Of a stretch of DNA of 64,000 nucleotides, positions 6,773-26,141 are shown one piece after another (position 1 is the first letter of the stretch; every line of letters starts with the position of its first letter). The notes under the pieces were generated by a model. That model ran no database searches and was not told the origin of the DNA. It saw nothing but the letters and a program-made list of their open reading frames with translations. The stretch is from an uncultured Geobacteraceae bacterium (GTDB taxonomy: Bacteria; Desulfobacterota; Desulfuromonadia; Geobacterales; Pseudopelobacteraceae). The stretch is taken from positions 1-64,000 of the forward strand of contig CAJAFV010000079.1 of NCBI GenBank assembly GCA_903939115.1, read 5' to 3'. The position numbers and the translations under genes were made by a program.

Positions 6773-6783
6773 TAGTCGCTCCG

Positions 6784-6817
6784 AAAAATAGACGGGCTAC
6801 CCTGGCTGGGTAGCCCG
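6784..6817 (-). terminator. Terminator of the rhodanese lipoprotein gene
   Basis: CGGGCTACCC (6793-6802) pairs with GGGTAGCCCG (6808-6817). On the minus strand the stem is followed, two bases on, by a run of T (6784-6788). Confidence 0.85.
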
Positions 6818-6860
6818 AATGTGTAATCAGTTGGAAGGCAACTGGTTACTCTGTACGCCA

Positions 6861-7364
6861 CTACTTTGTTAGGGGATAATTGGACTCACTCCATCCGGTA
6901 ACGCCTGCAGGGTAGCGATATACATTCTTGAAACCGTTATCAACAAGTATCTTTGCTCCAATGTGACTTCTTCTGCAGGCGACGAAACCGCAATAGACTA
7001 CAACCTGCTTTTCTTTGTCGGTTCCGGCAACAGTCAGCAGGTTGTCTTTGTCTGCCTGAGTAAGATCTTTTTCGGTTTTTGGCATTGCTCCATTTACCGC
7101 AGATGGGAGAGTGCCGAACTCTTTGTCTTCAGTCGCGGGTAGGGTGCTGATGATGGTCAGCTTTTTGCCCTCATCGAGCCATTTCTTCAGTTCGTCAGTG
7201 CTGACAACTTTGTAACCACCATCCTTGATGTCGGAGGAAAATTTCACTGCAGCCTTTTCTATGGGAAGCTCAAGTCCCTTGGGTGACGTGCCGTGGGATG
7301 TTGCGCATCCGGAAAGGGCAAGGGTTGTGACGGCAAACAGTACGAGGTAATTCATGGTTTTCAT
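6861..7364 (-). CDS. Rhodanese-domain lipoprotein
   Basis: 167 residues. The signal peptide ends in LALSGC (lipobox), predicting a periplasmic lipoprotein. A single rhodanese domain follows, with the active-site loop VVVYCGFVACRRSH. I placed the start at ATG 7364 (AAGGAG six bases upstream) rather than a start 14 codons earlier. Rhodanese-like lipoproteins occur in Geobacter extracellular-electron-transfer (ext) clusters, but no cytochrome gene is adjacent here, so sulfur handling or thiol redox is equally possible. Confidence 0.85.
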   Translation of the reverse strand: MKTMNYLVLFAVTTLALSGCATSHGTSPKGLELPIEKAAVKFSSDIKDGGYKVVSTDELKKWLDEGKKLTIISTLPATEDKEFGTLPSAVNGAMPKTEKDLTQADKDNLLTVAGTDKEKQVVVYCGFVACRRSHIGAKILVDNGFKNVYRYPAGVTGWSESNYPLTK

Positions 7365-10857: not shown

Positions 10858-10866
10858 TTCATCCTG

Positions 10867-12510
10867 TTAAACCGGCTTTTCCTCTGTTACTGCTGCAGGT
10901 TTCTTCTTCGGTATCAGCTTGGCCGGAATCCCTGCGGCGATATGGTCGTCCGGCACGTCCACCATCAGTACGGTATTGGCGCCGATGTCTACGTTGTTGC
11001 CGACGACGATCCGCCCCAGTACCTTGGCACCGGTGCCGATGTTGACGTTGTTGCCGAGCTGCGGTGCGCAGGGATCGTCCACACGCTTCAGGCCGACCGT
11101 GACACCGTTGCGGATGATGCAGTCGTCACCGAACTTCGCAAAGCCGCTGACGATGATATCGCCGAAGTGGTCGATGCGGAAGTTTCTGCCAACCGGGACT
11201 TCACACGGCATTTCAACTCCGGTTACTATCTGTACCACCTTGAAGAGGAACTTGTAGAGCAGTGAAAACGGCTTGCGGAGCAGGCTGCTACCGATTGTGT
11301 AGCGCCAGCGCCCGAGGCGGTAAACGAGCATAACCCAATAGCCCTGTCGCCCCCAGTCGTAAAAGTGAGTGCGCAGATCGCGTTTGATATTGAGCCGCAG
11401 CTTGCGATCCTCGTTGATAATGCGGTTCTGCAGTGCCTCGCGGGGGAGCCCGTCAGTCGTGGTATCAAGCGGCGCATCGAGCGGATTGATCCGTTCCGGC
11501 GGCGGAGCCGGCATTCCCGAACCGGTCAGTTCCTTTCCGTAGCCATCCCGTTCAAGTGTCGCCATAATAAGCTCCATGGTCTGGGCTGCGTCCTCCCGTT
11601 TAACCCGGGCCTGCCCGCCCCCCTTGATGCTGTTTTTCAGTCTGATGACACTCTTCCAGAATAGTTCCACTCCGGCTGCCAGCAGCACCTTCAGCAAGCC
11701 ATAGTTGGCGCGGTAATAGCGGAATTCACTCTGCACTCGCAGGTAGGTCAGCTGCCGTCCCGCTTTCGTTACCTTGCCGGTAGATTCGGAACTTTGCCCC
11801 CCCAGATGGATACATTTTGTGTATGGGTAGAAAACCACCGGCCAACCCGCTTTGGCTGATTTCAGGCAGAATTCGATCTCCTCAAAATAGAGGAAATAGC
11901 GCTCCTCATTCAGCAGGCCGATGGCGTCAAAAACGTCACGCCGCACCAGAAAAAAGGCCCCCGGCACCCAGCCGACGATCTTCTCGGTTGAGTGATCCCA
12001 CCAGGTGTAATCCGGTCCGCCCAGGGTTGGAGAATGCTTGAACTTATTGGCGACCCCGGAAATGACCAGCAGCTTTGTCCAGGGTGATGGCAGCATGCGC
12101 GCTGACGGCTGCATGGCATCATCCTGGCCCACCAGTTTGACGCCGAGAATACCCCATTGCGGATGCTCTTCCATCGCGTTAAGCGTGGCGAACAAGGTGT
12201 CGGGAAAAAGGTAGGCATCGGAGTTGAGCAGCAGCAGGAAGCGCCCCTTCGCTACACGGATACCAACATTATTGCCGCCGGCAAAGCCCAGGTTCTTATT
12301 GGTTCGCAGCAGCGTTGCCCGGGGGAATTCAGCCGCTATCATGCCAGCCGAATCATCACGGGAGGCGTTGTCAACGACAATGACCTCCATATCCAGTCCG
12401 GCGCCGTATTCGTAGACGCGTTTCAGGCATTCACGGGTGACATCGCGGGTGTTGAAGCTGACGACTATTACCGAGAGCAGCATGGAAGGCTGGTGGGTTA
12501 TAACACTCAT
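10867..12510 (-). CDS. Fusion: family 2 glycosyltransferase and serine-acetyltransferase-like domain
   Basis: 547 residues. Residues about 10-300 are a GT2 domain (SVIVVSFNTRDVTRECL, VDNASRDDSAGM, LLLNSDAYLF) of the rhamnosyltransferase-like subgroup. Residues about 370-535 are a left-handed beta-helix acetyltransferase of CysE type (DHFGDIIVSG, NVNIGTGAKVLG, NNVDIGANTVLM, AAGIPAKLIPKK). The fusion suggests transfer of a sugar plus O- or N-acetylation in one protein. It overlaps the upstream glycosyltransferase gene by 4 bases and lies 9 bases from the downstream one. Confidence 0.85.
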   Translation of the reverse strand: MSVITHQPSMLLSVIVVSFNTRDVTRECLKRVYEYGAGLDMEVIVVDNASRDDSAGMIAAEFPRATLLRTNKNLGFAGGNNVGIRVAKGRFLLLLNSDAYLFPDTLFATLNAMEEHPQWGILGVKLVGQDDAMQPSARMLPSPWTKLLVISGVANKFKHSPTLGGPDYTWWDHSTEKIVGWVPGAFFLVRRDVFDAIGLLNEERYFLYFEEIEFCLKSAKAGWPVVFYPYTKCIHLGGQSSESTGKVTKAGRQLTYLRVQSEFRYYRANYGLLKVLLAAGVELFWKSVIRLKNSIKGGGQARVKREDAAQTMELIMATLERDGYGKELTGSGMPAPPPERINPLDAPLDTTTDGLPREALQNRIINEDRKLRLNIKRDLRTHFYDWGRQGYWVMLVYRLGRWRYTIGSSLLRKPFSLLYKFLFKVVQIVTGVEMPCEVPVGRNFRIDHFGDIIVSGFAKFGDDCIIRNGVTVGLKRVDDPCAPQLGNNVNIGTGAKVLGRIVVGNNVDIGANTVLMVDVPDDHIAAGIPAKLIPKKKPAAVTEEKPV

Positions 12511-13424
12511 GGGTAGAGCCCCGCCGGCGGCGCCGGGATGTTCTCCAGCCGTGTACCTATCTTCAGCTTCTCAAACTGCCAGGCGTGCAGCGACTCACGA
12601 AACCCCGGATCTTCGAAGCGCTTCATTCCCTCCAGCATGGCTTTAAAATAGCCGCAGATAATCCCGAGGCCACCGATAATGAACGGTTTCTCTGCCATTC
12701 TATAGATTCCCATCGGGACAATATAGATGGGGTGAGTCCCCATGAAATACTGGCCACGTCCCCAGCGCATGCGGCCGTGCCAGATGCTTTGGTGCGATGA
12801 ACCCATCAGGCGTTTATGTATGATGTCGAGCTTCGGATTGCGGACGCTGCGGGTGCGCCAACCGGTGATACGAGCCTTGTGGTAGGCGATGCCGTCCCAA
12901 TGTACCTGACGTACAAAGCCGCCGATCGCCTCAAAGCATTTCCGCCGATAAAAGTTGACCATACCGGCCACCATTTCATCACTGGCACGCTCCTCCACCA
13001 AACCGCCACCCTCTTCAATAAAAATCTTGCCGCTGCCGGAGCCGAGCTGCGGATCCTTCTCGAAATATTCGACCAGGGTGGAGAAGTACTCCGGCCCGAT
13101 CTCGATATCGCCGTCCATCTTGCAGATGTAGTCGTACTCTTTCGTAAGGATCTGGTCGTAACCGAAATAAAAAGCTTCAACTACGCCCGGACCAACTGCC
13201 CGCACACCTCGATCCTGACGTTTGACCACCCGTATCCAGGGATACTGCCGGGAGGCGCGCTCTGCAATAGCATAGGTGTCGTCAGTTGAACCGTCATCCA
13301 CCAGCAGCCACTCCACCGGCTTCAGTGACTGTGCCGCGAGACAGTCGATGGTTCCCTGGAGATATTTTGCTTCGTCGCGTACCGGGGCGACTATGACGAT
13401 GCGTCTTCCTGCTGTTTCACTCAT
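12507..13424 (-). CDS. Family 2 glycosyltransferase
   Basis: About 305 residues. Motifs are RIVIVAPVRDEAKYLQGTID, LVDDGSTDDT and CKMDGDIEIG (the DxD metal site). I set the start at ATG 13424, which overlaps the stop of the upstream gene (ATGA); the frame extends 42 codons further but without family similarity. No clear membrane segment except a weak hydrophobic stretch near residues 240-265. It probably assembles EPS repeat units. Confidence 0.85.
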   Translation of the reverse strand: MSETAGRRIVIVAPVRDEAKYLQGTIDCLAAQSLKPVEWLLVDDGSTDDTYAIAERASRQYPWIRVVKRQDRGVRAVGPGVVEAFYFGYDQILTKEYDYICKMDGDIEIGPEYFSTLVEYFEKDPQLGSGSGKIFIEEGGGLVEERASDEMVAGMVNFYRRKCFEAIGGFVRQVHWDGIAYHKARITGWRTRSVRNPKLDIIHKRLMGSSHQSIWHGRMRWGRGQYFMGTHPIYIVPMGIYRMAEKPFIIGGLGIICGYFKAMLEGMKRFEDPGFRESLHAWQFEKLKIGTRLENIPAPPAGLYP

Positions 13425-14683
13425 GGTTTTGATCCTGACAAAATGGATTTGAATAACTGCGACAGTTTTTCTGCGTTGACCTCTTCCGAAAACTCTCCTT
13501 CGATTTTCACTCTGCCGCCAGCTATACAGCGGCTTCGGAGTTCCGCGCAATCAATTAATCCGGCTATCGCATCGGCAAGAGCCTGAGAATCAGCCGGTGG
13601 TACAATCAGTCCGGACGTTTCATTTTCAATCAACTCCGGAATTGCGGAAACCGTCGTGGAAATCACCGGAATGCCGGCGGCCATGGACTCCATCAGCGCT
13701 ACGGGGATACCATCCATGTCGCCATTGCTGTCCACGCGGCAGGCGAGCACAAACTGATTCAGCCCGCAGAGCCATTCGGGAACGGTATCGTTTGCGACAG
13801 GTCCAAGAAAAGTAATACGGTCGGCAACGCCTTCCTGTTCGGCCTGTTTCAGCAGCTCTGTTTTAAGCGGGCCGTCGCCGGCGATTTCCATGCGGAAATC
13901 TCTCCCGCTCCTGAACAGAATGCCTGCTGCGGCGATCAGGGTGTCGAAACCTTTCTTTTCTACCAGGCGACCGAGGGAACCGATAACCGGAATCGTTACC
14001 CCACTTTGTAAAGGGGGGCCAGGGGGGATTTGGCTTGCAACTCCATCAAACCGCCCACTGTCAACTCCGCAGCGCACGATGGTAATCTTTGCCCCGTCCG
14101 CTCCCTGTGACACCAGAAAACGGCGATTATATTCTGATATGGTCATTGCCTGTGCGGATCGTGCAACTTTCTCTTTCAGCAGCCAGCCCCGCTCAAACAG
14201 GTCGTTGGCGTGAGAGGTAAAGCTGAAGGTGATGCCGGTAAAACGTGCCGCATACATGGCGATATCGGTTGGAACATGGGCAAAGTGAACGTGCAGGTGG
14301 CGGCAGCCATGTTCTTCCAGAATCCGGGCGAGTCTCGCACCAGCCAGGAAGCGGTAGAGAAGGCCGACTGCCGCGCGGCTGAAAAAACCGACGCGTGCCA
14401 TATCGCCAAGCAGCATGCAGGCGGCTGAGAGGTAGCGCAAAGGATGACGCACTTTCATAAAAACCGCTGCAGTCAGAAATGATACGGCTCCTTGCGGGTA
14501 GAGCTGAATCGTTTCGGCCGCCAGCAGACTGGCGCACTCTTCCGTTGCCGGTGATGACGGCGGATGTACCGAAACCGGCAGCACGTCAAACCCCTTGTCG
14601 CGCAGGGCCAGTATCTCATGATACACAAAGGTGGCGGACAGTGCCGGTATTTCGGGTGCAAGATAGGCGATACGCGGTCTCAT
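13421..14683 (-). CDS. Family 4 glycosyltransferase
   Basis: About 420 residues. The GT-B fold shows an N-terminal domain (RIAYLAPEIPALSATFVYHE) and a C-terminal GT1-type domain with IPVIGSLGRLVEKKGFD, AGDGPLKTEL and GIPVALMESMAAGIPVIST (the E-x7-E-type sugar-nucleotide site). The start ATG 14683 follows the upstream stop by one base. A stretch encoding SQIPPGPPLQSG between the two domains coincides with a C/G-rich repeat in the DNA (see the repeat entry), so a repeat seems inserted in frame without breaking the gene. Confidence 0.88.
   Translation of the reverse strand: MRPRIAYLAPEIPALSATFVYHEILALRDKGFDVLPVSVHPPSSPATEECASLLAAETIQLYPQGAVSFLTAAVFMKVRHPLRYLSAACMLLGDMARVGFFSRAAVGLLYRFLAGARLARILEEHGCRHLHVHFAHVPTDIAMYAARFTGITFSFTSHANDLFERGWLLKEKVARSAQAMTISEYNRRFLVSQGADGAKITIVRCGVDSGRFDGVASQIPPGPPLQSGVTIPVIGSLGRLVEKKGFDTLIAAAGILFRSGRDFRMEIAGDGPLKTELLKQAEQEGVADRITFLGPVANDTVPEWLCGLNQFVLACRVDSNGDMDGIPVALMESMAAGIPVISTTVSAIPELIENETSGLIVPPADSQALADAIAGLIDCAELRSRCIAGGRVKIEGEFSEEVNAEKLSQLFKSILSGSKP
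13999..14031. repeat. C/G-rich dispersed-type repeat inside a glycosyltransferase gene
   Basis: The bases CCCCACTTTGTAAAGGGGGG followed by CCAGGGGGGATTT form an imperfect palindrome of a kind found dispersed between genes in many bacterial genomes. Here it lies within coding sequence in frame. Only one copy is in this window, so repeat status rests on recognition of the pattern. Confidence 0.5.
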
Positions 14684-14684
14684 A

Positions 14685-15542
14685 TCAAGGTTTTCCTTTG
14701 GTCTGCACACGCACCATGCGCGGCGGTTTGTCGAAGCGGTTGTCGAGGTTGACCGTAATATCGTCATTCAGCAGCAGCCCGCTCCGATTTTTATCCTGTC
14801 CATACAGACCCCAGTGCGCCTCGCACAGGCCGACCCCCTCCGCTCCCCACTCTTTTTTTGCTTCGGCGATAAGACGGTCATCCTGAAGCAGCATGATGCC
14901 ACTGTCATCAACCGTAACTTCAACCTTCACCCATTGACGCATCGGAAAGCGGATGCTGGAAATTCTTGTAAAGGTTCCCTTGCTGAAAACCGGAACATGA
15001 AACAGTACCAACCGATCCTCACCCTGCTCAAAGCCAAGGTTGACGCCGAACAGATCTTTCCACTCTTTCTTATGGCTGTAGGTGGCAAAACTGATCCAGC
15101 CACGCTGAGCGGGAGAGGGGAGGTCAGCCCAGACAAGAAAAGAGGAACGGTACCCGCCGCGATAACATTCCGGTAGTAAAAGTGCCGGATATATCCGGTG
15201 ACTGTCACCGCCGGGTGGAGCGGCGGAGGTAATTTCACCGCGCAGTACGGAACCGCGCCCTGATCCGGTCGGATCGGGGATGACCTTGAGTGTCCCTGTG
15301 GGAACGCCTTCGAAATGCCACCAACTATATTCTTCGAGGTTGCCGGTTTCGTGGCGGGCCTGCCAATACTGGGCACTTTTTCCATCTGCGGACGGAATGG
15401 ATTTCGATTCAGCCGCAGGTGGATTAACAGTGCCAGCGTGCGTTGCATGAGGCAGGCTGCTGACTATGTTACGAATAACAAGCACCGCTGCAACAGCGAC
15501 AAGCCCTGATAGTGCATACTGGGTAATTTTCATGATCGGCAT
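14685..15542 (-). CDS. Polysaccharide-lyase-like exported protein
   Basis: About 285 residues. A hydrophobic N-terminus (YALSGLVAVAAVLVIRNIV) is a signal anchor or signal peptide. The mature part has features of the concanavalin-like polysaccharide lyase family (heparin lyase I-type fold): the EYSWWHFEG region, RSSFLVWADLPS, a WVKVEVTVDDSG strand and VGLCEAHWGLYGQDKN near the end. Start is ATG 15542 or 15533; a TTG at 15569 is also in frame. It heads the minus-strand glycosyltransferase operon, so it may trim or process the polysaccharide. Catalytic activity is not proven by the sequence. Confidence 0.6.
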   Translation of the reverse strand: MPIMKITQYALSGLVAVAAVLVIRNIVSSLPHATHAGTVNPPAAESKSIPSADGKSAQYWQARHETGNLEEYSWWHFEGVPTGTLKVIPDPTGSGRGSVLRGEITSAAPPGGDSHRIYPALLLPECYRGGYRSSFLVWADLPSPAQRGWISFATYSHKKEWKDLFGVNLGFEQGEDRLVLFHVPVFSKGTFTRISSIRFPMRQWVKVEVTVDDSGIMLLQDDRLIAEAKKEWGAEGVGLCEAHWGLYGQDKNRSGLLLNDDITVNLDNRFDKPPRMVRVQTKGKP

Positions 15543-15722
15543 AGTGTCAAACGGGGAGCATTTGTTCAAGGGGTAAAATTCAAACCTATTCTATGGCAAT
15601 ATGATCTTTTCCACCATCTTGAGAAGTTACAAAATTTCTTTATCTGTGTTTGATGCCGATTTCCTCATCCAGAACCGGAGAGATCCGTCGATGGAGAAGT
15701 GGGCTTTGGCTGATAATTGTCG

Positions 15723-17666
15723 CTACATATTTAACTTCATTACCCTTTTTATCTCATTAATCAATTCCTGCTGTTCCATTGGTTTTGACAGATACCCGTC
15801 AAATCCTTCACTAAGGAAGCGTTCCTTTTCGCCGCGTAACGCCCGGGCGGTGAGCGCAATAACCAGTTGGTGGCAAGAGGTTCCCTGCTCTTTCGTGCGG
15901 ATGGCACGGAGAGCTTCCTCGCCATTCATCACCGGCATCTGAATATCCATCAGGACGAGATCAAATGTACCTTGATCAAGTGCCTCCAGGCTCTCTGTGC
16001 CATTCTCGGCTATCACTACCTGGTGGCCATGCTTGCCAAGCAGTACGGTGCCGAATTTCAGATTGACTGGACTGTCTTCCACTAACAGAATCCGCAACGA
16101 CGGACCATCCCAGGTTGGAGTGACGAACGGAAATGCAATGTCGGTTACATATTGTAAGGTCGGAATTGCGAACGGAAGTGTTAGCATGAAGCTGCTGCCG
16201 ACACCTTGGCTGCTTTTGACAGAAATATCTCCACCCATAAGCTCTGCCAGACTGCGGCTGATAGTGAGGCCGAGCCCGGTACCGCCAAACCGGCGGGTCG
16301 TTGAGCCATCCTCCTGAACAAAGGGATTGAAGATTCTGTCGAGCGCCTCCGCTGAAATGCCGATACCGGTATCGGTAACCGAAATCTGAATGATTAGGCT
16401 ACCATAATGCCGTTCAAGCACCGCTGCTGCTATGGTGACGCCTCCGGACTTTGTAAACTTCGCTGCATTACCGAGCAGGTTGAGGATTATCTGCTTGACC
16501 CGCAGTTGATCGCCAATGATCACGTTGGGAATATCTTCAGCGACGGTGATATCAAACGAAAGCTTCTTCCCGAATATGAACGATTTTTGCATCAAATAGA
16601 CTTCATTGATTGCACGACGCAGATCAAATTCTATCGGTGCTATCGTGATCTTTCCGGCTTCAACCTTGGACAGGTCTAGGATGTCGTTGACCAGTGACAT
16701 CAGGGCTTTTCCGGACAGCTTAAGGGCAACCATGTACTCCTGCTGCTCGTGCGTCAGATCAGTCATCTCCAGAAGTTGGGTCATACCCAGCAGGCCGTTC
16801 ATGGGGGTGCGGATTTCATGACTCATGTTGGCCAGAAACTCAGATTTGGCACGGTTGGCAAATTCGGCGGTTTCCCGGGCCTGTTTGAGGTCGTGCTCAT
16901 GCTGCTTTGTTTCTGTGATGTTGGTATGGGAAACGACAGCAAACAGTGAGTCGCCGACAAAAAACGAGTTAACCACACAGATAAACCAGCGTTCCTTATC
17001 AGGGCTATTACAGGAGTATTCCTTTATGAACTCTGGAATGGTTCCGCTTAATACCCGCTTAATGCCAGTTACAAAGTCGTTGGCAGGATTGCAATCCTGT
17101 CCATCGATTGGCTGACACACTGAAACATAGTTAGTACCAACACCACACCGTGCATAAACTCCATCATTTTCTCTGGCAAAATTGTTCCACGCACGGTTGG
17201 TAGTAACAATGGTTCCCTGTGCATCGATAACGCAAATATTTGCTGGCAGACCGTCGAGAATTGCCGCGCGGTGTAATAACTCTTTCTCAACCTTATTAAA
17301 ATCTGTGATGTCGGCGAACATTACCATCAGATTGTCAGAGTCTATTTTGTGAACACTTATCTTGAGTGCCAGAGCAGTGCGACCCACGATATCTGCTGCA
17401 ATTGTCACGTTCAGATTGTCGCAAACGACTCCATAGCTGCCTGCATATTCGTCGCTTAATCTCCTGATTTGTGGCGCTACAGGGTCAAGGACGGTAAAGA
17501 GATTGCTGAAAAAACCTTCGCCTGACAGAGGGGTGAGCAATGCCGTCGCACGCGGCGAAAGCATTTTGATCTCACCGTCAGTTGAAATCTGAGCCACAGC
17601 AACGGGCATCCGGTAAAGAAAAGCCATCATTTCATTATTGTCTAAGCCAGGCTCTGTAATATGCAT
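15723..17666 (-). CDS. Hybrid histidine kinase (PAS-PAS-HisKA-HATPase-REC)
   Basis: 647 residues, no membrane segment, so cytoplasmic. Two PAS-type regions lie at about 10-125 and 130-255. The HisKA H-box is [20 protein letters not shown]. The ATPase domain has N (NLLGNAAKF), G1 (DTGIGIS), F and G2 ([10 protein letters not shown]) boxes. A C-terminal receiver has LLVEDSPVN, the phospho-acceptor [12 protein letters not shown] and the Lys in YLSKPM. It starts 5 bases after the stop of the PYP-like gene, so the PYP homologue is very likely its input or partner. No DNA-binding output is present. Confidence 0.93.
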
Positions 17667-17671
17667 ACGCG

Positions 17672-18049
17672 TTACCTTGGTTGAACCAATACATAACGGG
17701 TCGAATACCCTGGTGAGTAGAGCAATCGCAGTTGTACTTTGGTAGGGCGCATACGCCAGCTAAATATGAATTCGACAGTTGCGTCCAGTGATGCTCCTTC
17801 AGTAATGGCATCTTCAAAGCGCACTGCAACCAGGAAGTTGTTCATACACTGTGCAAGTTCGGTGAACACATTTTTTCCAAGAGCATCGGCTGGCCTGAGC
17901 CCTGCCAGTTTAGCCTCACAGGTATTGTACCTGCACACTGCATTGTCGCCATTGAAACCAATCACACCAAAATCAAGTGTATCAAGCGTAATATCGTCCA
18001 ATGTTTCTAAACACGCCAAGATGTCAGTCTGCTCAAACGAGATCGTCAT
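17672..18049 (-). CDS. Photoactive yellow protein homologue
   Basis: 125 residues, exactly the length of Halorhodospira PYP. The alignment is collinear with an offset of one residue. Tyr41 (RYN), Glu45 and Cys68 (LAQCMNN) fall on PYP Tyr42, Glu46 and the chromophore-binding Cys69. [17 protein letters not shown] and [12 protein letters not shown] also match the PYP pattern (LAFGAIQLDGDG, GKNFF, QMTPTKVKVHMK). PYP Thr50 and Arg52 are replaced by Ala and Leu, so spectral tuning would differ. SD AGGAG lies 6 bases before ATG 18049. It is co-transcribed with a hybrid kinase. Whether it binds p-coumarate is unknown; no chromophore-synthesis genes are visible nearby. Confidence 0.85.
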
Positions 18050-18498
18050 ATAAGTCTCCTGTGTTTTTTTCAGAAAGAGTTCTCCTGCCCCGAATTTGCT
18101 TTACTAACGAATATGGTTTGTTTCGGTACTACGACCGGCAAGCCTTTACGAACATGGCTCCAGTCGTTAAGAGTTACATTTATCGTGCCGAGTTGCTGAA
18201 ACAAATAGAGCTTATAAGACAGTGTGTTAACTTGTTGCCGGTATGCAGGTGTTCCGGTTGTCTGCTAGTGACGCTAGTTGACGTCTGCGGGTGAAATTAA
18301 GGTAAATTGCTGAAATAAATTAATTTATGTCGGGTAGACATACGTTGACGCTGCAACTTTTGTCCAGAATCTGATACACCCTCAGTTTAGACTCAACCAA
18401 TGTACCGTGCGCAAAAGATTAAAGCAATCAGGTGAAAAATGACACTATAAAGCACGTATTAAACTTGATGCGCCTCTGTCGAACTCCTCACCATTGTC
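18050..18498. other. Divergent intergenic region between PYP and phosphatase genes
   Basis: About 450 bases with no convincing gene. A 97-codon frame on the plus strand overlaps the PYP gene and has no ribosome binding site. The region is AT-rich near 18290-18330 and probably holds the promoter of the PYP-kinase operon, but I could not identify one clearly. Confidence 0.5.
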
Positions 18499-18535: not shown

Positions 18536-19732
18536 ATGCGCATCCTCTATATCGACGACAAGCCTGACATTCGTAATCTGTTGCAGCGCTACCTGACATC
18601 CTGGGGGTATGAAGCGGTTGGTGCGGCTGATGGTGAAGAGGGGTGGCAGCTGATTCAGTCACTGTGCCCAGATATTGTCGTCACAGACTGGATGATGCCC
18701 GGTCTGGACGGGTTGGAATTGTGCAGACGTATTCGTACTGCGGGTCTTCCCCGTTATGTGTATGTGATTTTACTGACCGCACGGAATGTCAAGGAGGATC
18801 TGGTTGTCGGCATGGAAGCCGGCGCGGATGACTTTATTGGTAAGCCGTTCGAGAAGCTGGAGCTAAAAGCCCGTCTCAATGCCGCGGCCCGCATCATCTC
18901 ACTTGAACGCGCGTTGGAAGAGAAAAATCGCAAACTTGAAGACGCGTACGATGTTATCAAAGACGACCTTGAGGCTGCAGCCAGGATTCAGAACAGTCTT
19001 ATTCCTCAAAAAGTTGAAATATTCAGCGGGATTACTTTTGATTGGTTATTCTGCCCTTCGCTGTTTGTAGCGGGTGACATCTTCAATATTATCAGCATCG
19101 ATGAAAAAACGCTCGCCTTTTACCTGCTTGATGTAAGCGGACATGGCATACCGGCCGCGCTTCTTTCAACGACCCTCAGTCGTGTACTGACACCGACGCC
19201 GAACTTTGCGGGGCCGATGCGGCATCCACTGGTCGCACCGCCATTCTACGGTATAACTGCACCACGAAATGTCGTTGCCGAACTGAATGAACGTTTTATG
19301 AACGACAATGTCCAGACACAGTATTTCACCATTGTATACGGTATTATAGATATACAGTCCGCGTCAGGAACCCTCACTCAGGCCGGTCATCCCTCGCCGA
19401 TTCACCAGTCTGCTGACGGATCGGTTCGCCTGATAGGCGATGGCGGTTTTCCGGTCGGAATGATTCCAGAGGCTGAATATGAAGAGCATTCTTTCACCAT
19501 CAATGTAGGTGAACGTCTGTTTCTCTATTCTGACGGCATTACCGAATGTCGCGGCACCGATGGAGTAATGTTTGGTACCGACCGGTTGCTGAAGATTATT
19601 CGCGACGGCTACCGGCTCTCGCTCCGCGAACTGATGGCCCGCATTGAACGTGAACTCGCCGAATTTCAGGGCAGCTCACAGTTTGAAGATGACATTTCTT
19701 TGTTGGTAATGGAACGGAGGGAGGAAGTATGA
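18536..19732 (+). CDS. Response regulator with PP2C-type (RsbU/SpoIIE) phosphatase output
   Basis: 398 residues. The receiver domain occupies 1-120 (ILYIDDKPDIRNLL, phospho-acceptor in VVTDWMMPGLDG, Lys in FIGKPFEKL). A coiled linker (ERALEEKNRKLEDAYDVIKD) leads to a SpoIIE-type PPM phosphatase domain with GDIFNIISIDEKT, LLDVSGHGIPAALLS, FTIVYGIID and DDISLLVM. Such proteins dephosphorylate STAS anti-anti-sigma proteins in partner-switching cascades. A STAS protein and an RsbW-like kinase are encoded 2-3 kb downstream. The stop overlaps the next gene (ATGA). Confidence 0.92.
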   Translation: MRILYIDDKPDIRNLLQRYLTSWGYEAVGAADGEEGWQLIQSLCPDIVVTDWMMPGLDGLELCRRIRTAGLPRYVYVILLTARNVKEDLVVGMEAGADDFIGKPFEKLELKARLNAAARIISLERALEEKNRKLEDAYDVIKDDLEAAARIQNSLIPQKVEIFSGITFDWLFCPSLFVAGDIFNIISIDEKTLAFYLLDVSGHGIPAALLSTTLSRVLTPTPNFAGPMRHPLVAPPFYGITAPRNVVAELNERFMNDNVQTQYFTIVYGIIDIQSASGTLTQAGHPSPIHQSADGSVRLIGDGGFPVGMIPEAEYEEHSFTINVGERLFLYSDGITECRGTDGVMFGTDRLLKIIRDGYRLSLRELMARIERELAEFQGSSQFEDDISLLVMERREEV

Positions 19733-20895
19733 AGGCAATGATTCTGGGGGCAGGAAAGGGAACGCGGGTGCGACCGATTACCTATACCGTCCCCAAGCCG
19801 ATGATCAGTCTGGCCGGCAAGCCGGTGCTGGAATTCATCATCGAACACCTCGTCTCTCAAGGGTTTGACGAAATAGTCATCAACACCAGTTACATGGCGG
19901 ATTCCATTGAAGGCTATTTCCGTGATGGTTCCCGTTTCGGCGCGAATATCGCCTATTCCTTTGAAGGGAAGCTGGTGGATGGTGAACTTCAAGGTGAAGC
20001 GCTTGGTTCCGCCGGGGGAATGAAACGGGTTCAGGATTTTTCCCGTTTTTTTGATGACACATTTGCCGTGTTGTGCGGCGATGCGGTGATTGATGTTGAC
20101 CTGCAGGCCGCTCTGGCGTTCCACAAAAGCAGCGGAGCGGTGGCGACCATTATCCTCAAGGAGGTGGCAGCGGACGAGGTCTCCAGCTACGGCATCGTCG
20201 AGTTGGGTGAAGACGGGCGGATTCTCCGTTTCCAGGAGAAACCGAAACCGGAAGAGGCTGTGTCCAGGGTTGCCAATACCGGCATCTACCTGTTTGAGCC
20301 GGAGGTATTCTCTTATATCCCCTCCGGCGCGGAATATGATATCGGCTCCCAGCTTTTCCCGGCGCTGGTTGCCGCCGGTGCGTCGCTGTATGGCATTGCG
20401 CTCCCCTTTACCTGGCTTGATATCGGCAATGTCCGCTCATGGTGGGACGCCACCCGTTCCATCATCTCCGGAGAGGTGGACGGTTTCCGCCTGCCGGGAA
20501 AAGAGCTGCGTCACGGAATTTTCTGCGGTCTGAACTGCTCGATCGACTTTGATGTAATTGACATCGTTCCGCCGGTGCTGATCGGCGGCAGCGTCAGCAT
20601 CGGTGCCGGTTCGCGCATTGTCGGCCCCACCGTTATTGGTTCCGGTTCCGTTATAGAGGCGGGTGCAGAGATCTCCGAATGTATCATCGACAGCTATACC
20701 AGGGTCAGCGGGATAGCAACTCTGGAGGGGAAAATAATTTTCGGAAATCGTTGTATTTCACCGGACGGAGTTTCCATAAAAATCGCCGAGCATGATATCG
20801 GCTGGATTCTCGGCGACGCGCGGGAACAGGGACCGCCGAACCCGGTGCATGAGGCGTTGCAGGAGCTTGCGAGTGAGTTGCGCGGGGCGAAATAG
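19729..20895 (+). CDS. NDP-sugar pyrophosphorylase (nucleotidyltransferase)
   Basis: 388 residues. The N-terminal nucleotidyltransferase domain begins with AMILGAGKGTRVRPIT and has VPKPMISLAGKPVLE and LCGDAVIDVD (metal site). Its C-terminal third has hexapeptide-like repeats (SIGAGSRIVGPTVIGSGSVI) forming a left-handed beta helix. This architecture is shared by mannose-1-phosphate guanylyltransferase-like and glucose-1-phosphate uridylyl/thymidylyltransferase-like enzymes; the cupin gene downstream makes mannose activation plausible. It supplies sugar nucleotide for EPS synthesis. Confidence 0.85.
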   Translation: MKAMILGAGKGTRVRPITYTVPKPMISLAGKPVLEFIIEHLVSQGFDEIVINTSYMADSIEGYFRDGSRFGANIAYSFEGKLVDGELQGEALGSAGGMKRVQDFSRFFDDTFAVLCGDAVIDVDLQAALAFHKSSGAVATIILKEVAADEVSSYGIVELGEDGRILRFQEKPKPEEAVSRVANTGIYLFEPEVFSYIPSGAEYDIGSQLFPALVAAGASLYGIALPFTWLDIGNVRSWWDATRSIISGEVDGFRLPGKELRHGIFCGLNCSIDFDVIDIVPPVLIGGSVSIGAGSRIVGPTVIGSGSVIEAGAEISECIIDSYTRVSGIATLEGKIIFGNRCISPDGVSIKIAEHDIGWILGDAREQGPPNPVHEALQELASELRGAK

Positions 20896-20920
20896 ATTAC
20901 CTCAGTGATTGCGAGGGATC

Positions 20921-21466
20921 ATGGATTTTAAAACCGTCACATCAAATCTGCTGACCGCATTTGCGCTGGGACATGTCAGTTATGCCCTGATTGGCGGGTT
21001 TGCCGTCAGTTTGTGGGGCTATCAGCGGGCTACCGTTGACATTGATTTTCTGGTGAATAGCAATGATATGGAAAAAGTGAGGCAGATTGTCGAAGGTATG
21101 GGGTACCGCTGTATCCATGTCTCGGAAAATGTCACCCAGTTTTCATCTGATGACAAACGGCAGGGTACGCTGGACTTCCTGCATGCCTTTCGGCCTGCTT
21201 CCCTGCAAATGTTGGAACGCGCCAAACTCAAGTCTATTTTCGACGGTGAACAGAGTATTCCTGTTATAGTGCCGGAAGACCTGATCGGGCTAAAAATTCA
21301 GGCTCTTAATAATGACCCTTCCCGAACTCTGCTTGACATGGCTGATATTGAGGCTTTGATGAAAATATTTGGCGGTGCGCTCGACTGGACGAGAATTGAG
21401 GGATACTTTGAACTTTTTGGCAGAACGGAAGCATGTGCAAAACTGAGGCACACATACGATGTCTGA
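20921..21466 (+). CDS. Nucleotidyltransferase-fold protein (AbiEii/MNT-like)
   Basis: About 181 residues. YALIGGFAVSLWGYQRATVDIDFLV holds the GG-x-A...D-x-D signature of the minimal nucleotidyltransferase fold, as in AbiEii-type toxins and uncharacterised DUF6036-like proteins. The start ATG 20921 has GAGGG just upstream; a TTG four codons earlier is less likely. It overlaps a 68-codon gene downstream. No HEPN partner or antitoxin of known type is adjacent, so a toxin role is not shown. It sits as an apparent passenger within the EPS operon. Confidence 0.7.
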   Translation: MDFKTVTSNLLTAFALGHVSYALIGGFAVSLWGYQRATVDIDFLVNSNDMEKVRQIVEGMGYRCIHVSENVTQFSSDDKRQGTLDFLHAFRPASLQMLERAKLKSIFDGEQSIPVIVPEDLIGLKIQALNNDPSRTLLDMADIEALMKIFGGALDWTRIEGYFELFGRTEACAKLRHTYDV

Positions 21467-21665
21467 ATTCAGGATCGAAGAAACCCTGCTTGTTGGTACG
21501 GACGCTGAGTCGCTTACTCGGGATTGCCGTCTGCTTCGGCACTATTCAAGTACAGATCTGCCCAGTGCGGATGAGGTGATTGCTTTTCTTGATGGCTATA
21601 ATTCCTTTATCAACCATGAAACCCGTCCCTTTTTGCCTATGCGGGAATGCACTATGTTGTTGTGA
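21459..21665 (+). CDS. Small hypothetical protein paired with the nucleotidyltransferase
   Basis: 68 residues, overlapping the upstream nucleotidyltransferase gene by 8 bases. The sequence is polar with FLDGYNSFINHETRPFLPM near the end and has no signal peptide. It might be the partner of the nucleotidyltransferase. I do not recognise it. Confidence 0.5.
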   Translation: MSEFRIEETLLVGTDAESLTRDCRLLRHYSSTDLPSADEVIAFLDGYNSFINHETRPFLPMRECTMLL

Positions 21666-21730
21666 GATTGATCGGTTGGGTGCAGTGTGAACTGCTTTGA
21701 TATATCAATATATCCATAGGAGATTTTTTC

Positions 21731-22066
21731 ATGTCAATCAATGTAAATCAGGAAACAGGCATCACCGTTATTACGCTTTCCGGGCGCTTTGACGCGCTGA
21801 TGGCAAAAGAGTTCAAGGCCTGTATTGGCGACCTGATCGAAAAGCAGAATGTGATGATCGCAATCGACATGGCAGCTATTGCTTTTATTGACAGCTCCGG
21901 ACTCGGTTCTCTTGTGGGAGGCTTGAAGGGGATAGCCAAGGAAAAAGGGGAGATAAGGATTGCCGGTCTGTCGCCTGAAGTACGGACTATCTTTGAGCTG
22001 ACGCGCCTGCATCGGATTTTTGATATTTACGAAAACATAGAAACTGCGCGTGCCAGTTTTGTGTAA
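21731..22066 (+). CDS. STAS-domain anti-anti-sigma factor (RsbV/SpoIIAA-like)
   Basis: 111 residues, a single STAS domain. VITLSGRFDALMAKEF opens the domain, and IAFIDSSGLGSLVGGL carries the D-S-x-G-L motif with the phosphorylatable serine. An AGGAG sequence precedes ATG 21731. Partners in the same operon are the PP2C-type phosphatase at 18536 and the RsbW-like kinase at 22457, the complete set needed for a partner switch. The final target, a sigma factor or another protein, is not visible. Confidence 0.9.
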   Translation: MSINVNQETGITVITLSGRFDALMAKEFKACIGDLIEKQNVMIAIDMAAIAFIDSSGLGSLVGGLKGIAKEKGEIRIAGLSPEVRTIFELTRLHRIFDIYENIETARASFV

Positions 22067-22081
22067 TTCCGGGGGTAACTA

Positions 22082-22453
22082 ATGGAACGAGGCGAACGTC
22101 CGTGGGGCACGTATACCGTGCTTGATGAAAAAAGTAACTACAAGATCAAGCGCATTGAGGTGCTGCCGGGGCAGCGACTGTCGCTGCAGAAGCATCATCA
22201 TCGCAGCGAGCACTGGATTGTCGTATCAGGGACAGCGATGGTCACCTGTGGCGACAAGGTGTTTCAAATCAACGTCAATGAGTCAACCTATATTCCTATC
22301 GGTAGCAACCATCGACTGGAAAACCCGGGCAAGATTCTTCTGGTGATTATTGAAGTCCAGAACGGCGAGTATCTCGGTGAAGATGATATCATCCGCTTTG
22401 ATGACGACTATCACCGCTGCGATGCAGCAACTGAAGCTCATACAACCGGCTAG
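22082..22453 (+). CDS. Stand-alone mannose-6-phosphate isomerase-type cupin
   Basis: 123 residues: ERGERPWGTYTVLDE, IKRIEVLPGQRLSLQKHHHRSEHWIVVSGTA with metal-binding His residues, and YIPIGSNHRLENPG. This corresponds to the C-terminal cupin of bifunctional ManC/type II phosphomannose isomerase, here as a separate gene. It could interconvert fructose 6-phosphate and mannose 6-phosphate for GDP-mannose formation, with the nucleotidyltransferase at 19729 as the pyrophosphorylase. Confidence 0.88.
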   Translation: MERGERPWGTYTVLDEKSNYKIKRIEVLPGQRLSLQKHHHRSEHWIVVSGTAMVTCGDKVFQINVNESTYIPIGSNHRLENPGKILLVIIEVQNGEYLGEDDIIRFDDDYHRCDAATEAHTTG

Positions 22454-22456
22454 CCG

Positions 22457-22867
22457 ATGCTTCACTACTCGATTGAGATGCCCTGTTTACTTGAATCACT
22501 GCGTATTGCGGCCCCTTTTACGGATGCGGTTCTTCACGAGCTTCCTGACGTGCCGGAACGTGCCAGGCTGATTCATGACCTGACGCTGGTCTCAAGCGAA
22601 GCGCTGACTAATGGCCTGCGCCACGGAGAACGTTCAGGAGCGCAGATCCGGCTCGCATATACCTTAAATCCTTATGGAATCGTGATTACTATTACGGATC
22701 ATGGTGTCGGTTTTGATCCGGATGCGGTTGAGTTGCCTGATTTTGAGGAGTGCCCGGAAGGTGGCTACGGGATTTACATCATGAAAACGATCATGGATGA
22801 CATGCGCTATGAAAAGACAGCCGACGGCAACAATCTTATCCTTACCAAGAGCTGGGTGGTGCGCTGA
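22457..22867 (+). CDS. RsbW-like anti-sigma serine/threonine kinase (HATPase_c_2)
   Basis: 136 residues. LVSSEALTNGLRHGERSG is the N box, ITDHGVGFDPDAV the G1 box and GGYGIYIMKTIMD the G2 box of GHKL kinases of RsbW/SpoIIAB type. It starts 4 bases after the cupin gene and ends one base before the Wza-like gene. It is expected to phosphorylate the STAS protein of 21731 or 30640 and to sequester a partner when the STAS protein is phosphorylated. Confidence 0.88.
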   Translation: MLHYSIEMPCLLESLRIAAPFTDAVLHELPDVPERARLIHDLTLVSSEALTNGLRHGERSGAQIRLAYTLNPYGIVITITDHGVGFDPDAVELPDFEECPEGGYGIYIMKTIMDDMRYEKTADGNNLILTKSWVVR

Positions 22868-22868
22868 T

Positions 22869-23882
22869 ATGCCTTCATTTTTGATAATGAGGGCTCTTCT
22901 GCTCTGCTCTGTAGTGCTAATGCTGCTGGTCGGCTGTAGCGGTGCGCCACGTACGCTGCCTCCCGGTTTTCTTGCCGAACGGGACATTCAATCTGTTGAG
23001 TACGCACCTCCCGAAGTGATGCAGGCTTTTGAAGCGGCACTCAATAAGGAATATCTTCTGGGTCCCGGTGACGTAGTTGAAATTGTGGCGCCGGTGTATC
23101 CCGAAATTGCCGGAGAGCAGACCGTCAGCCCCGAAGGTGTCATGACCGTCTACCCGGTTGGCGGTGTTCAGGTGGGTGGCCTCAGCAGAAACGATGCGGA
23201 AGTGCGCTTGAAAACTGTGTTGACAAAATATTTTTCTCCACCGACGCTGACACTACGGATAAAATCCTTTGAAAATAATCAGGTGCTGGTACTCGGCAAA
23301 GTAGCGACTCCCGGCGCAGTCAAGTTCAGATCCCGCCCCAATCTGCTGGAAGCTTTGGCGAAATCGGGGGCATTCTCACCTACCGGCCTGGAGCGGCGTA
23401 TTACCCGCTGCGACATCATCCGTGGTAAAGATCAGATTCTGCGCGTATCAATTGACGAACTACTGAAAGGTGGGGCGAATGGCCGCAACGTTGATCTGGC
23501 CAACAACGATGTCGTCTATATTCACGAAAATAATGACAACAATGTCTATATAATGGGTGAAGTCGGCAAGCCGGGAGCCTACGAAATCCGCTCTTCATTG
23601 TCGCTGCTGAATGCCGTCATGCTGGCTGGCGGTCCGACCGAGGATGCCGTGACAAGTGAAATAATGCTGGTGCGTGAACAGACACCGGAGGCGGAGCCTC
23701 TCACGGTAAGCTTTGATCGAATGGTGAATTCCGCTGACTATGGCGGCAATGTCATTCTGGCTCGTAATGATATTATATTTGTTCCCCGACGAGGCATGGC
23801 GAAATTTAACTACTACCTGCGGATGCTCAACCCGTTTACGCAGATGGTTCTTTTCAACAAAGCCGTCGGCACTTACAAATAG
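22869..23882 (+). CDS. Polysaccharide export lipoprotein (Wza/OMA family)
   Basis: About 337 residues. The signal peptide ends in LLVGC (lipobox). Poly_export domain: YLLGPGDVVEIVAPVYPE and VSPEGVMTVYPVGGVQVGG, followed by two SLBB domains (NNQVLVLGKVATPGAVKF and NNVYIMGEVGKPGAYEIR). It probably forms the outer-membrane channel for EPS with the Wzz/Wzc-like protein encoded next. ATG 22869 was chosen because the signal peptide starts there; the frame is open 24 codons further upstream, over the kinase gene. Confidence 0.92.
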   Translation: MPSFLIMRALLLCSVVLMLLVGCSGAPRTLPPGFLAERDIQSVEYAPPEVMQAFEAALNKEYLLGPGDVVEIVAPVYPEIAGEQTVSPEGVMTVYPVGGVQVGGLSRNDAEVRLKTVLTKYFSPPTLTLRIKSFENNQVLVLGKVATPGAVKFRSRPNLLEALAKSGAFSPTGLERRITRCDIIRGKDQILRVSIDELLKGGANGRNVDLANNDVVYIHENNDNNVYIMGEVGKPGAYEIRSSLSLLNAVMLAGGPTEDAVTSEIMLVREQTPEAEPLTVSFDRMVNSADYGGNVILARNDIIFVPRRGMAKFNYYLRMLNPFTQMVLFNKAVGTYK

Positions 23883-23888
23883 GAAACC

Positions 23889-26135
23889 ATGGACACAAAC
23901 TCTAACCAAAGCGAACCGCACCGCAAACCGCGCAGAACCTTCAGTAAACCGTTCAATCCGATCGGCGCCGTTATCGAATACCTGCATATCGTGGTTGCCA
24001 TCACCCTGATCGGCACCCTGCTCACAGTACCCTATGTCATCCTCAAAAAGAAGCCGGGATACGCTGCTGAGGGGATTATCATGATCAATCCCTACATGCC
24101 CAAGATCCTTTACCGGGTGGAGGACAGTAATTTCATCCATTCGTTTGAAGACTGGATGCGAACCCAAATCAAGGTGATCACCAGTTATCCCGTGCTGGAG
24201 TGGTCCATAAAGGATTATGAAGCGCAGGGCTTTAAATGGCGGCTTCCGGGCGAATCAACATTGTCTGCTGTTAACCGGCTCAACAGCCGTGTCAAGGTCG
24301 TGCAGATCCGCGACACCCAGCTCATTACCATTTCGACGGAGAACATGCGCAGCGACGGTATGGCGGAGATTATCAACAGCGTCATAAAAGGGTATATCAA
24401 TTCCATCGATTCGGCGACACATACTCAGGACAGCTATAAGCTGGACGTGCTTGGAAAAGAACGGCAGAAAGTCCAGAAAGAGTTGGATGAGGGGTATCGG
24501 AAGCTGGAGGAAATCTCCAGCAAATACGGTACCGCCATCACCGAAGAAAAAAATCTGTACATCTATTTCGAGACTCTCGCAGACCTGAAAAAAACATACA
24601 ACAAGATGGTCGCCGAGCGGATTATGGCTGACAGCCGCATGAAGGCTCTGAGTCAAAAGGGCGGCACGCTGAAAGGGATGCCGCTTTCCGGGTTGGTTGC
24701 TGATCGGGTAGACGCGGGGCTCGGCATGTCGGGTCTGATAGTCCAGATCAGCGCCCGTATTCAGGATGCCAAAGAGCAGATGGTCGGGTTGACCGAGGAT
24801 AATCCTCGCTACATTCTGACCAAGCGTCGGTTACAGGAGATGGAAAGTCAGGTAGCACGACTGCAGGAGTGGCTCTCGAAAAACCAGGATCAGGTAGTGC
24901 GGGGTAAGCTTCTGGATGACAACCAGCTTGCTATTGAAAATTCCCGGGTTGATTACCGGACGTCAATTGCTGCGGAAAAGCTACTGTTGAAAGAGCTTGA
25001 TCGGGCCCAGAAAGATGTGCTGGATTATAACACCGCCGTGCTGCGCGCTCAGACCAAACGGCAGGAGATTGTGCGGTTGATGGAAACCTTGACCCGCATT
25101 AACGAGCGCACCGATCAGATTCAGATGGAGTTTGCTTCGCCCGGACGTATTACGGTCACCGCATGGGCGCAGAAACCGGAGAATCCCAACGTTGACCCAC
25201 GCGGTAAGCTCGTGCCTATCTGCTTTATCGTATCGCTTATGGCTGGAGTCGGTGTCGCGCTGGGGCGCGAAATGATGGACAGTCGCATCAAGCGTCCCGC
25301 TGACGTGGAAAAACTATTGGGCTTCCCGCTCACCGGTTTCGTGCTGCGCGCTGATGAAGAAAAAATCCCGGAGGGGGACCTCTACTCCCTTCACAGGCTG
25401 CATCCGCGTTCTTTCATAACGCAGCAGTTAGCTGAAATCGTTGTGAAAATAGACCGGGAACGGCTGGAGCACGGTTCGAAGGTATTCGCCTTTACCGGCC
25501 TTGGTGATGGTTGCGGAGTCACTATGTTGGCTATGAATGTGCTGGCCATGAGTTCCGTGCCGAGAAACCGTCGTTTATACATTGATCTGAACACGCGTGC
25601 CCCACTTGGCAGCAGCGAGCCGCTGAAAAATATTCTGGGGAATGCAATCGCCAAAGGATTCTCTGGTAATGCCAACGAAGAATTCCCGTTCGCCTTCTAC
25701 CCAAGTGCCGCGGATATGCATGAGGGGCGTGCTCACTCCAGTGAAGATCTCAAAATCCTGCTTGAAGAGCTGAAAAACTCCTTCGACATGATTGTTATGG
25801 ATCTCCCGCCAATACTGCTTTCTGCCGATACCCAGGCAATTACCAGTATTGCCGATGTGGTTATTTTGACTGCTCTGGCCCGCCATTCTCTCTGGGGGCA
25901 GTTAATGCGCTCAGTTACAATGCTCGATGATAGCGGCGTAAAAGTTATTTCTGTGGTGCTGAACCGGGTCGGGTTCGTTCGGGGCGGGTACCTGAGCAAA
26001 AACCTGCAGGCCTATCTGACTCTGGGGCGGGAGAGGAAACGTCACCTGTTCGGTGTCGTCAGCGCCACCGATTTACTGCACTCTTACCGCACTTCGGGAC
26101 TCCAAACGTTAAGGCGCATTTTCGGCAAAGGGTGA
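23889..26135 (+). CDS. Wzz/Wzc-type polysaccharide co-polymerase with degenerate kinase domain
   Basis: 748 residues. The Wzz domain has TM1 near residues 37-57 and a long periplasmic coiled coil (about 190-410), with TM2 near 440-458 (LVPICFIVSLMAGVGVAL). The C-terminal BY-kinase-like domain is altered: the Walker A equivalent is TGLGDGCGVTML, without the usual lysine, and Walker A' is LYIDLNTRAP, with Asn where the second Asp is expected. Walker B (MIVMDLPP) remains. There is no Tyr-rich tail. It probably controls chain length and export but is unlikely to be an active tyrosine kinase. Confidence 0.9.
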   Translation: MDTNSNQSEPHRKPRRTFSKPFNPIGAVIEYLHIVVAITLIGTLLTVPYVILKKKPGYAAEGIIMINPYMPKILYRVEDSNFIHSFEDWMRTQIKVITSYPVLEWSIKDYEAQGFKWRLPGESTLSAVNRLNSRVKVVQIRDTQLITISTENMRSDGMAEIINSVIKGYINSIDSATHTQDSYKLDVLGKERQKVQKELDEGYRKLEEISSKYGTAITEEKNLYIYFETLADLKKTYNKMVAERIMADSRMKALSQKGGTLKGMPLSGLVADRVDAGLGMSGLIVQISARIQDAKEQMVGLTEDNPRYILTKRRLQEMESQVARLQEWLSKNQDQVVRGKLLDDNQLAIENSRVDYRTSIAAEKLLLKELDRAQKDVLDYNTAVLRAQTKRQEIVRLMETLTRINERTDQIQMEFASPGRITVTAWAQKPENPNVDPRGKLVPICFIVSLMAGVGVALGREMMDSRIKRPADVEKLLGFPLTGFVLRADEEKIPEGDLYSLHRLHPRSFITQQLAEIVVKIDRERLEHGSKVFAFTGLGDGCGVTMLAMNVLAMSSVPRNRRLYIDLNTRAPLGSSEPLKNILGNAIAKGFSGNANEEFPFAFYPSAADMHEGRAHSSEDLKILLEELKNSFDMIVMDLPPILLSADTQAITSIADVVILTALARHSLWGQLMRSVTMLDDSGVKVISVVLNRVGFVRGGYLSKNLQAYLTLGRERKRHLFGVVSATDLLHSYRTSGLQTLRRIFGKG

Positions 26136-26141
26136 CGGGGG

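Follow-up and report, generated by a model that had tools for sequence, protein, structure and literature searches.

A clade C-type photoactive yellow protein homologue and a proposed partner histidine kinase in an exopolysaccharide cluster of a Geobacteraceae bacterium

How photoactive yellow protein (PYP) transfers its signal was called an important knowledge gap in a survey of 2025 (PMC12826048). The described systems closest to the one presented here are the PYP of Halorhodospira halophila (PDB 1nwz and 1kou), the fusion of PYP, phytochrome and kinase in Ppr of Rhodospirillum centenum (PDB 1mzu), and the PYP of Idiomarina loihiensis with its adjacent GGDEF protein (PMC9664959; PMC12826048). 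Among the groups of PYPs, clade C of Xing, Gumerov and Zhulin (2022; PMC9664959) is of particular relevance. It is equated in that paper with group 6 of its reference 43, its members were found mostly in Burkholderiales and misannotated as phosphonate transporter, and none of them had been characterised by then. GGDEF and kinase neighbours of PYPs were reported in both studies, and the published PYP operons contain a lyase in 5% and a ligase in 32% of the cases (PMC12826048).

The window, i.e., the whole stretch of DNA analysed, comprises 64,000 nucleotides of a contig from an uncultured Geobacteraceae bacterium. The original prediction was that a PYP homologue of 125 residues is encoded at 17672..18049, and this was borne out. 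The reading frame is open on the minus strand, from an ATG at 18049 to a TAA at 17674-17672, and it is located in the following context.

9859..14767, minus strand: glycosyltransferases of the exopolysaccharide cluster, three of family 2 and one of group 1 (domains, congener comparison)
14685..15569, minus strand: protein of 294 amino acids that matches no Pfam family and borders the empty site on the left (domains, congener comparison)
15723..17666, minus strand: hybrid histidine kinase of 647 amino acids (domain search, motif check)
17262..17639, minus strand: N-terminal PAS-like partner domain of this kinase, which is proposed to receive the signal from PYP (profile comparison)
17672..18049, minus strand: pyp homologue of clade C type, 125 amino acids, with Tyr41, Glu45, Cys68 and Met100 (ORF, profile and structure-database matches, alignment)
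18056..18060, minus strand: probable ribosome-binding site AGGAG of pyp, a few nucleotides before the ATG (read from the sequence)
18536..19732, plus strand: response regulator with a phosphatase output of the SpoIIE type, transcribed away from pyp and bordering the empty site on the right (domains, congener comparison)
19729..27500, plus strand: nucleotidyltransferases, STAS protein, mannose-6-phosphate isomerase cupin, anti-sigma-type ATPase, polysaccharide export protein (SLBB), Wzc-like and Wzy-like proteins

The ORF is real and its product is a PYP homologue, hence a probable sensor of blue light, with a resemblance far beyond chance. In the PDB, PYP and Ppr match it best (E about 1e-17), and residues 2-120 match the NCBIfam model TIGR02373 (photo_yellow) with an E-value of 5.4e-22. 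The family-model search that had been proposed thus gave a match, but at 78.2 bits this match stays below the curated equivalog cut-off of 143.05 bits. The same cut-off is missed by three other clade C proteins and by every PYP match from the 146 Myxococcota genomes searched, and TIGR02373 matched about 20% of the PYPs in PMC9664959. In the PDB alignments, Tyr41, Glu45 and Cys68 correspond to Tyr42, Glu46 and Cys69 of the H. halophila protein, as predicted, and the protein therefore has the Cys69 by which the family was delimited (Xing et al., 2022), in combination with Tyr42 and Glu46. The predicted offset of one residue was also found, but the alignment is not free of gaps, since one extra residue is present near position 85; thereafter, the numbering equals that of H. 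halophila PYP, and Met100 corresponds to Met100. Pocket positions that differ between the two proteins are Val62, Leu66, Gln68, Val92 and Trp98, the latter being the sole tryptophan of the window's PYP.

Replacement of Thr50 by Ala and of Arg52 by Leu, noted earlier as well, is seen in the alignment, but these residues are not special: Ala50 is present in 75 and Leu52 in 79 of 84 compared sequences, and both are also the consensus residues among 984 PYPs in print (Dohmen, 2025; PMC12826048). The idea of an unusual, spectrally shifted receptor on account of Ala50 and Leu52 was therefore rejected.

Bacterial and archaeal genomes were scanned with A1, an alignment of 11 copies from Geobacterales. 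This yielded 226 stretches encoding a relative, the best 80 of which were kept as loci. These best 80 of 226 are mostly from Burkholderiales (Massilia, Duganella, Sphaerotilus and others), with MAGs titled Archangium, Gemmatimonadaceae and Pseudohongiella as further hosts. On 13 plasmid records with a match, the protein is named "phosphonate transporter" in five cases and "PAS domain-containing protein" or "hypothetical protein" in the others. In a FastTree tree that also included 29 Myxococcota PYPs and fragments of H. halophila PYP and Ppr, but no clade B references (Leptospira, Salinibacter), the window's PYP falls in a clade of 86 members (local support 0.874; next node 0.982). This clade excludes H. 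halophila PYP, Ppr and the 29 Myxococcota PYPs and includes three plasmid proteins labelled phosphonate transporter (L165, L166 and L167); its inner nodes, and with them the order of branching within it, are mostly weakly supported. The residues typical of clade C lead to the same assignment: Met100 is present, Phe92 is replaced by Val and there is no Trp119, with Phe96 retained in the window copy, as in 8 of the 84 compared sequences. Tyr41, Asn42, Glu45, Cys68 and Met100 are invariant throughout the alignment of 84 sequences, a set that includes the second copies of L079 and L108, both of which fall outside the 86-member clade. Judged by both tree and residues, the window's PYP belongs with the published clade C. 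A placement outside the PYP family would have spoken against the original prediction; the one obtained is within it.

The Geobacter lineage is known for dark, anaerobic metal reduction, and a PYP had been considered unexpected here. PYPs are indeed rare in this lineage. A match was found in six of 98 relatives, and five genomes with 13 places were left after G096 had been dropped: one place each in G000 and G069, three each in G004 and G014, and five in G021, one of which is a contig-end fragment and another is cut by a contig end. The candidate in G096 (contig C34) was rejected, as its match (E 3.2e-4) covers 46 residues of a receiver-PAS protein. A phylum-wide scan of 395 genomes with TIGR02373 gave four weak matches besides the window's own. 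The occurrence is, however, not unprecedented, and a claim to that effect was rejected: Thermodesulfobacteriota are already in print, together with Campylobacterota, as a group holding <1% of the PYPs (PMC12826048).

Close copies of the window's PYP, 93% and 86% identical, are present in two other MAGs, the latter being isolate Loc090721-6m, titled Desulfobacteraceae. Stratified lakes are places where light and anoxia can meet. Several of the PYP host MAGs appear, from their record names, to originate from such lakes, and Lake Loclat is one lake of the stratified-lake dataset of PMC8121793, to which these MAGs may belong, judging by their names. In Myxococcota, PYPs were detected in 29 of 146 genomes in a search with TIGR02373 only, i.e., not with the clade C alignment (39 matches, 30 taken as loci and 29 included in the tree).

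The new finding here is that PYPs of this clade are nearly always paired with one and the same partner domain, whatever the output domain of the protein that carries it. In the window, the partner is the hybrid histidine kinase, the ORF of which begins 5 nt after the pyp stop codon. It consists of HisKA (residues 273-338), HATPase_c (385-500) and receiver (526-639) domains preceded by a weak PAS_4 match, under its cut-off, at residues 137-253. The H-box, the N-box and the receiver Asp are intact, and a crude hydropathy peak of 1.84 leaves a membrane helix conceivable though not obvious. In G021 (contig C252; L015:82-1610), two overlapping frames in place of one encode the kinase that follows the PYP of 93% identity, owing to either a frameshift or an assembly error.

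A shared pattern, with a consensus of about ExLxQFLYxAPVGLVQxxxDGxIxMINPxAAxLLxPL..LDNLF in an alignment of 20 copies (A2), occupies the first ~125 residues of the protein directly downstream of almost every PYP scanned. In a profile search, it was detected in 76 of the best 80 of 226 loci, at a distance of 21-131 nt (median 40) downstream of the PYP match. The figure of 76 is partly circular because the HMM was seeded with 60 sequences from these loci. The four loci without a downstream partner are L034, where the contig ends 293 nt further on, L077, which has a divergent copy about 1.3 kb off, and L036 and L053, in which none was found. Ten of the 13 PYP places in the relatives have the domain; two of the misses are at a contig end and that in G004 (contig C167) is a real one. 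No Pfam family matches the window's copy at E 0.1, and four copies compared with NCBIfam reached no cut-off, with one chance-level match (E 0.058). As only one of five full-length partner proteins tested (that of L037) matches PAS_4 over the domain, it is called PAS-like. The outputs of 76 scanned partner proteins are GGDEF in 63, HisKA in 10, EAL in nine and HD in one. This set comprises one protein from each of 74 loci among the 76, an additional one from L035 and the window's kinase; L031 and L100 were omitted because of short matched frames, and at least the protein of L033 is cut by a contig end. In the sections of PMC9664959 and PMC12826048 consulted and in the open-licence literature searched, no description of a shared input domain of PYP neighbours was found.

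Searches of whole genomes with A2, with scoring confined to the best 17-44 first-look candidates of each genome, are a cleaner test of the pairing, with the proviso that A2 itself was also derived from such loci. In the 98 relatives (4 to 118 first-look candidates per genome), the domain was found in the same five PYP-containing genomes and in no other at E 1e-5. Among 250 Burkholderiales genomes, PYP was found in five, the domain in five and both in four. The odd ones are G641, which has no partner domain and whose four PYP-like copies are weaker (E 4e-23 to 8e-22) and fall outside the clade of 86, and G537, with a weak domain match (1.5e-6) within a frame of 1855 residues and no PYP. The PYP-like copies of G641, which have Ala or Val at position 68, surround a ligase-like gene as two tandem pairs, and a BLUF-like match lies close by (L176:5879-9945). 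In Myxococcota, the domain is present only in the Archangium-titled MAG, in two copies that each directly follow a PYP. Pooled over 494 genomes, PYP and domain are found together in 10; besides these, there are two weaker PYP-like cases, one weak domain match and the 28 Myxococcota genomes that have other PYPs and no domain. When G000, G488 and G514, which were picked for holding such PYPs, are omitted, seven genomes with both are left.

An ordinary light receptor next to a PAS domain that is merely co-inherited in the operon and makes no specific contact with PYP is an alternative. Long shared descent could explain both the linkage and the correlation between PYP and partner distances (r 0.82 over 76 pairs), a correlation also expected from common descent. 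However, the pairing persists across Geobacteraceae, Burkholderiales, a myxobacterial MAG and others despite changing outputs, and the domain was not found by A2 search in 28 of the 29 PYP-bearing Myxococcota genomes, which makes this alternative improbable. The co-occurrence by genome and the absence from these 28 genomes indicate that the domain tracks clade C and not PYPs generally, and we propose that it is the receiver of the clade C PYP signal.

The PYP-containing genomes G004, G014 and G021 also hold copies of the domain without an adjacent PYP; hence, one PYP may serve several outputs. Partner-domain genes with no PYP in the fetched stretch are L170, L171, L172, L173 and L174, all from these three genomes. 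In many Burkholderiales loci (L050, L060, L061, L064 and others), a second domain copy is located ~1.3 kb on (at about 6750-7150), apparently in the next gene. On a Comamonadaceae plasmid (L166:4986-10048), a clade C PYP gene is convergent with a 4.1-kb gene for a PAS protein, which is followed by a BLUF gene, and no partner-domain match was found in the fetched stretch.

The search for chromophore genes that had been proposed with the original prediction turned out negative. Aromatic ammonia-lyase (PF00221) was found in none of seven genomes, i.e., the five PYP-containing Geobacterales, including the window's, and two comparators, and no close homologue of the PYP-type coumaroyl-CoA ligase was found in the five PYP-containing ones (best E-value 5.9e-7). 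The best ligase match in the window's genome (E 4.4e-5) is partial and of the generic fold, congeners without PYP reaching 6.4e-10; the chromophore pathway proper to PYP, i.e., lyase plus PYP-type ligase, was thus not detected in this genome. Elsewhere in the clade, in 21 of the best 80 of 226 loci, the clade C gene has a 4-coumarate-CoA ligase homologue at a distance of 54-254 nt; in three further loci, such a homologue is located 2-3 kb off, beside a second PYP. Four such neighbours (L061, L102 and L106, which are among the 21, and additionally L167 on a Caballeronia plasmid) score 317-325 bits on TIGR02372, slightly below the cut-off of 334.7. A coumaroyl-type chromophore is hence very probable for clade C as a whole. 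BLUF is found in three of the five PYP-containing Geobacterales genomes (G004, G014 and G069) vs. none of 22 PYP-free congeners; searches of the window's own genome and of G021 revealed none. Together, the ligase genes beside 21 of the 80 clade C genes and the presence of BLUF in these three genomes favour light sensing. In G004 (contig C31; L020:8169-8588), a BLUF gene (PF04940, E 1e-30) lies directly downstream of a PYP-kinase pair, and BLUF is also found near PYP in the Burkholderiales loci L055, L097 and L109.

Beyond the window's order, a PF00221 protein, which may be a histidine ammonia-lyase, is encoded in 29 of 33 hosts. Those without it are Leptothrix, two Sphaerotilus and Schlegelella; only S. 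natans among them has a ligase, and no PYP lies near this ligase within the fetched stretch. In the Archangium-titled MAG, PF00221 proteins were found but no close ligase. The simplest guess would be that the chromophore in the window's host is obtained by uptake of p-coumarate of plant or humic origin and its activation by a broad aromatic-acid CoA ligase.

Pro68, which adjoins the chromophore-binding Cys, is replaced by Gln in 17 of the 84 sequences: ten of the Geobacterales type, including the window's, four of the Sphaerotilus/Leptothrix type and three others. Two Geobacterales copies, i.e., that of G069 (L047) and a second one of G014 (in L035), keep Pro68. A ligase gene is present in the fetched flank of none of 16 Gln68 loci vs. 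24 of 64 Pro68 loci, in a set of related rows with several short Gln68 flanks. Other hosts lacking both lyase and ligase are Leptothrix and S. sulfidivorans, both with Gln68, and Schlegelella, with Pro68. The tie between Gln68 and missing genes is weakened by the related rows and short contigs, by the ligase that the Gln68 host S. natans (L045) has elsewhere in its genome, and by the two PF00221 proteins of the Gln68 host Ideonella (L077; G504). As a lead, Gln68 may mark a branch with another chromophore source or another ligand.

These data also bear on the possibility that the window's protein is a clade C-type sensor that has kept Cys68 and lost its light sense, and responds to another thioester-bound or aromatic ligand or to redox, so that the kinase would report chemistry, e.g., humic aromatics. 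The five host genomes without detected lyase or close PYP-type ligase, the Gln68 forms with their ligase-free flanks, and the three other hosts devoid of both genes would fit such a sensor. On the other hand, Tyr41, Glu45 and Met100 are as invariant as Cys68, BLUF is commoner in PYP-containing genomes, most published PYP operons lack lyase and ligase as well (see above), and Gln68 is not strictly tied to the absence of the genes, as the S. natans, Ideonella and two Pro68 Geobacterales copies illustrate. Overall, we consider loss of the light sense rather doubtful. A tentative variant combines the two themes: clade C PYPs would be the interchangeable sensor subunits of a split photoreceptor, docking on a single dedicated PAS receiver with kinase, diguanylate cyclase or phosphodiesterase outputs, and the Gln68 forms of Geobacteraceae and some Sphaerotilus/Leptothrix would take their chromophore or another Cys-bound aromatic from the environment, so that light would be reported only in the presence of aromatics from plants or humic matter. 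It is made somewhat less likely by S. natans and Ideonella each holding one chromophore gene.

The PYP-kinase pair is located within an exopolysaccharide cluster. In two congeners without PYP, G007 and G033, this cluster is collinear and the site of the pair is empty; G037 was outside this comparison. The order in these congeners is four glycosyltransferases, the 294-aa protein, REC-SpoIIE, nucleotidyltransferase, STAS and cupin, followed by the anti-sigma-type ATPase and the Wza-, Wzc- and Wzy-like genes. Measured from the matched part of the 294-aa protein to that of REC-SpoIIE, the gap is 133 nt in G007 and 120 nt in G033, vs. 2966 nt in the window, where it is occupied by the pair. The 294-aa protein is present in five of 39 genus members searched, including the window's. 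Another congener, G019, has other genes at the insertion site. A 58-aa stretch encoded in this genome (L194:8489-8662) is 65.5% identical to the receiver end of the kinase and is perhaps the remnant of a lost kinase; because of it, gain in the window's line and loss elsewhere are not separable for sure.

The patchy distribution (five of 98 relatives) could suggest a non-functional relic or a contaminated MAG. Contamination is unlikely in view of the synteny of the flanks with the two congeners, at 56-93% protein identity, and the intact ORF with its ribosome-binding site, the intact kinase motifs and the close copies in two other MAGs likewise speak against a relic; taken together, they leave very little probability for either.

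On balance, the clade C PYP is probably a detachable sensory subunit of a two-protein receptor formed with the downstream kinase. A chromophore of the hydroxycinnamoyl type would be bound to Cys68 through a thioester, its phenol end lying at Tyr41 and Glu45. Light would switch the PYP, which could then act on the PAS-like N-terminal domain of the kinase, and this contact would alter autophosphorylation and the phosphorelay. The output would most likely be control of exopolysaccharide or attachment, judging from the position of the two genes in an exopolysaccharide cluster, with the REC-SpoIIE phosphatase beside them and a pair of STAS and anti-sigma-type genes nearby. If this is true, a light response exists, with the chromophore pathway missing, in a lineage of dark metal reducers. 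A domain that co-occurs nearly one-to-one with clade C PYPs by genome is a concrete candidate for the signal receiver, and PYP signal transfer becomes testable with two small proteins.

The system in the window can now be compared with those described. With clade C, the window's PYP shares the retention of Tyr42/Glu46/Cys69 and Met100, the loss of Phe92, the lack of Trp119, the single-domain architecture, the vicinity of signal-output genes and relatives annotated as phosphonate transporter. It differs in its Geobacteraceae-type host, in having a histidine kinase and not a diguanylate cyclase as neighbour, in Gln68, Trp98 and the kept Phe96, and in a genome without detected lyase or close PYP-type ligase. 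The H. halophila PYP also has 125 residues, and residues 3-112 align with it with one inserted residue, the three chromophore residues being common to both; in contrast, the window's PYP is in a separate clade, has no ligase or lyase genes alongside and has a kinase partner. In Ppr, a PYP feeds a histidine kinase, as is proposed here, whereas the window encodes two separate proteins, the kinase of which starts with a PAS-like domain and has no phytochrome domain that could be found. In I. loihiensis, PYP and the adjacent output protein are also separate and a biofilm-type output has been proposed, as it is for the window, with a GGDEF protein in the former and a kinase in the latter (PMC9664959; PMC12826048).
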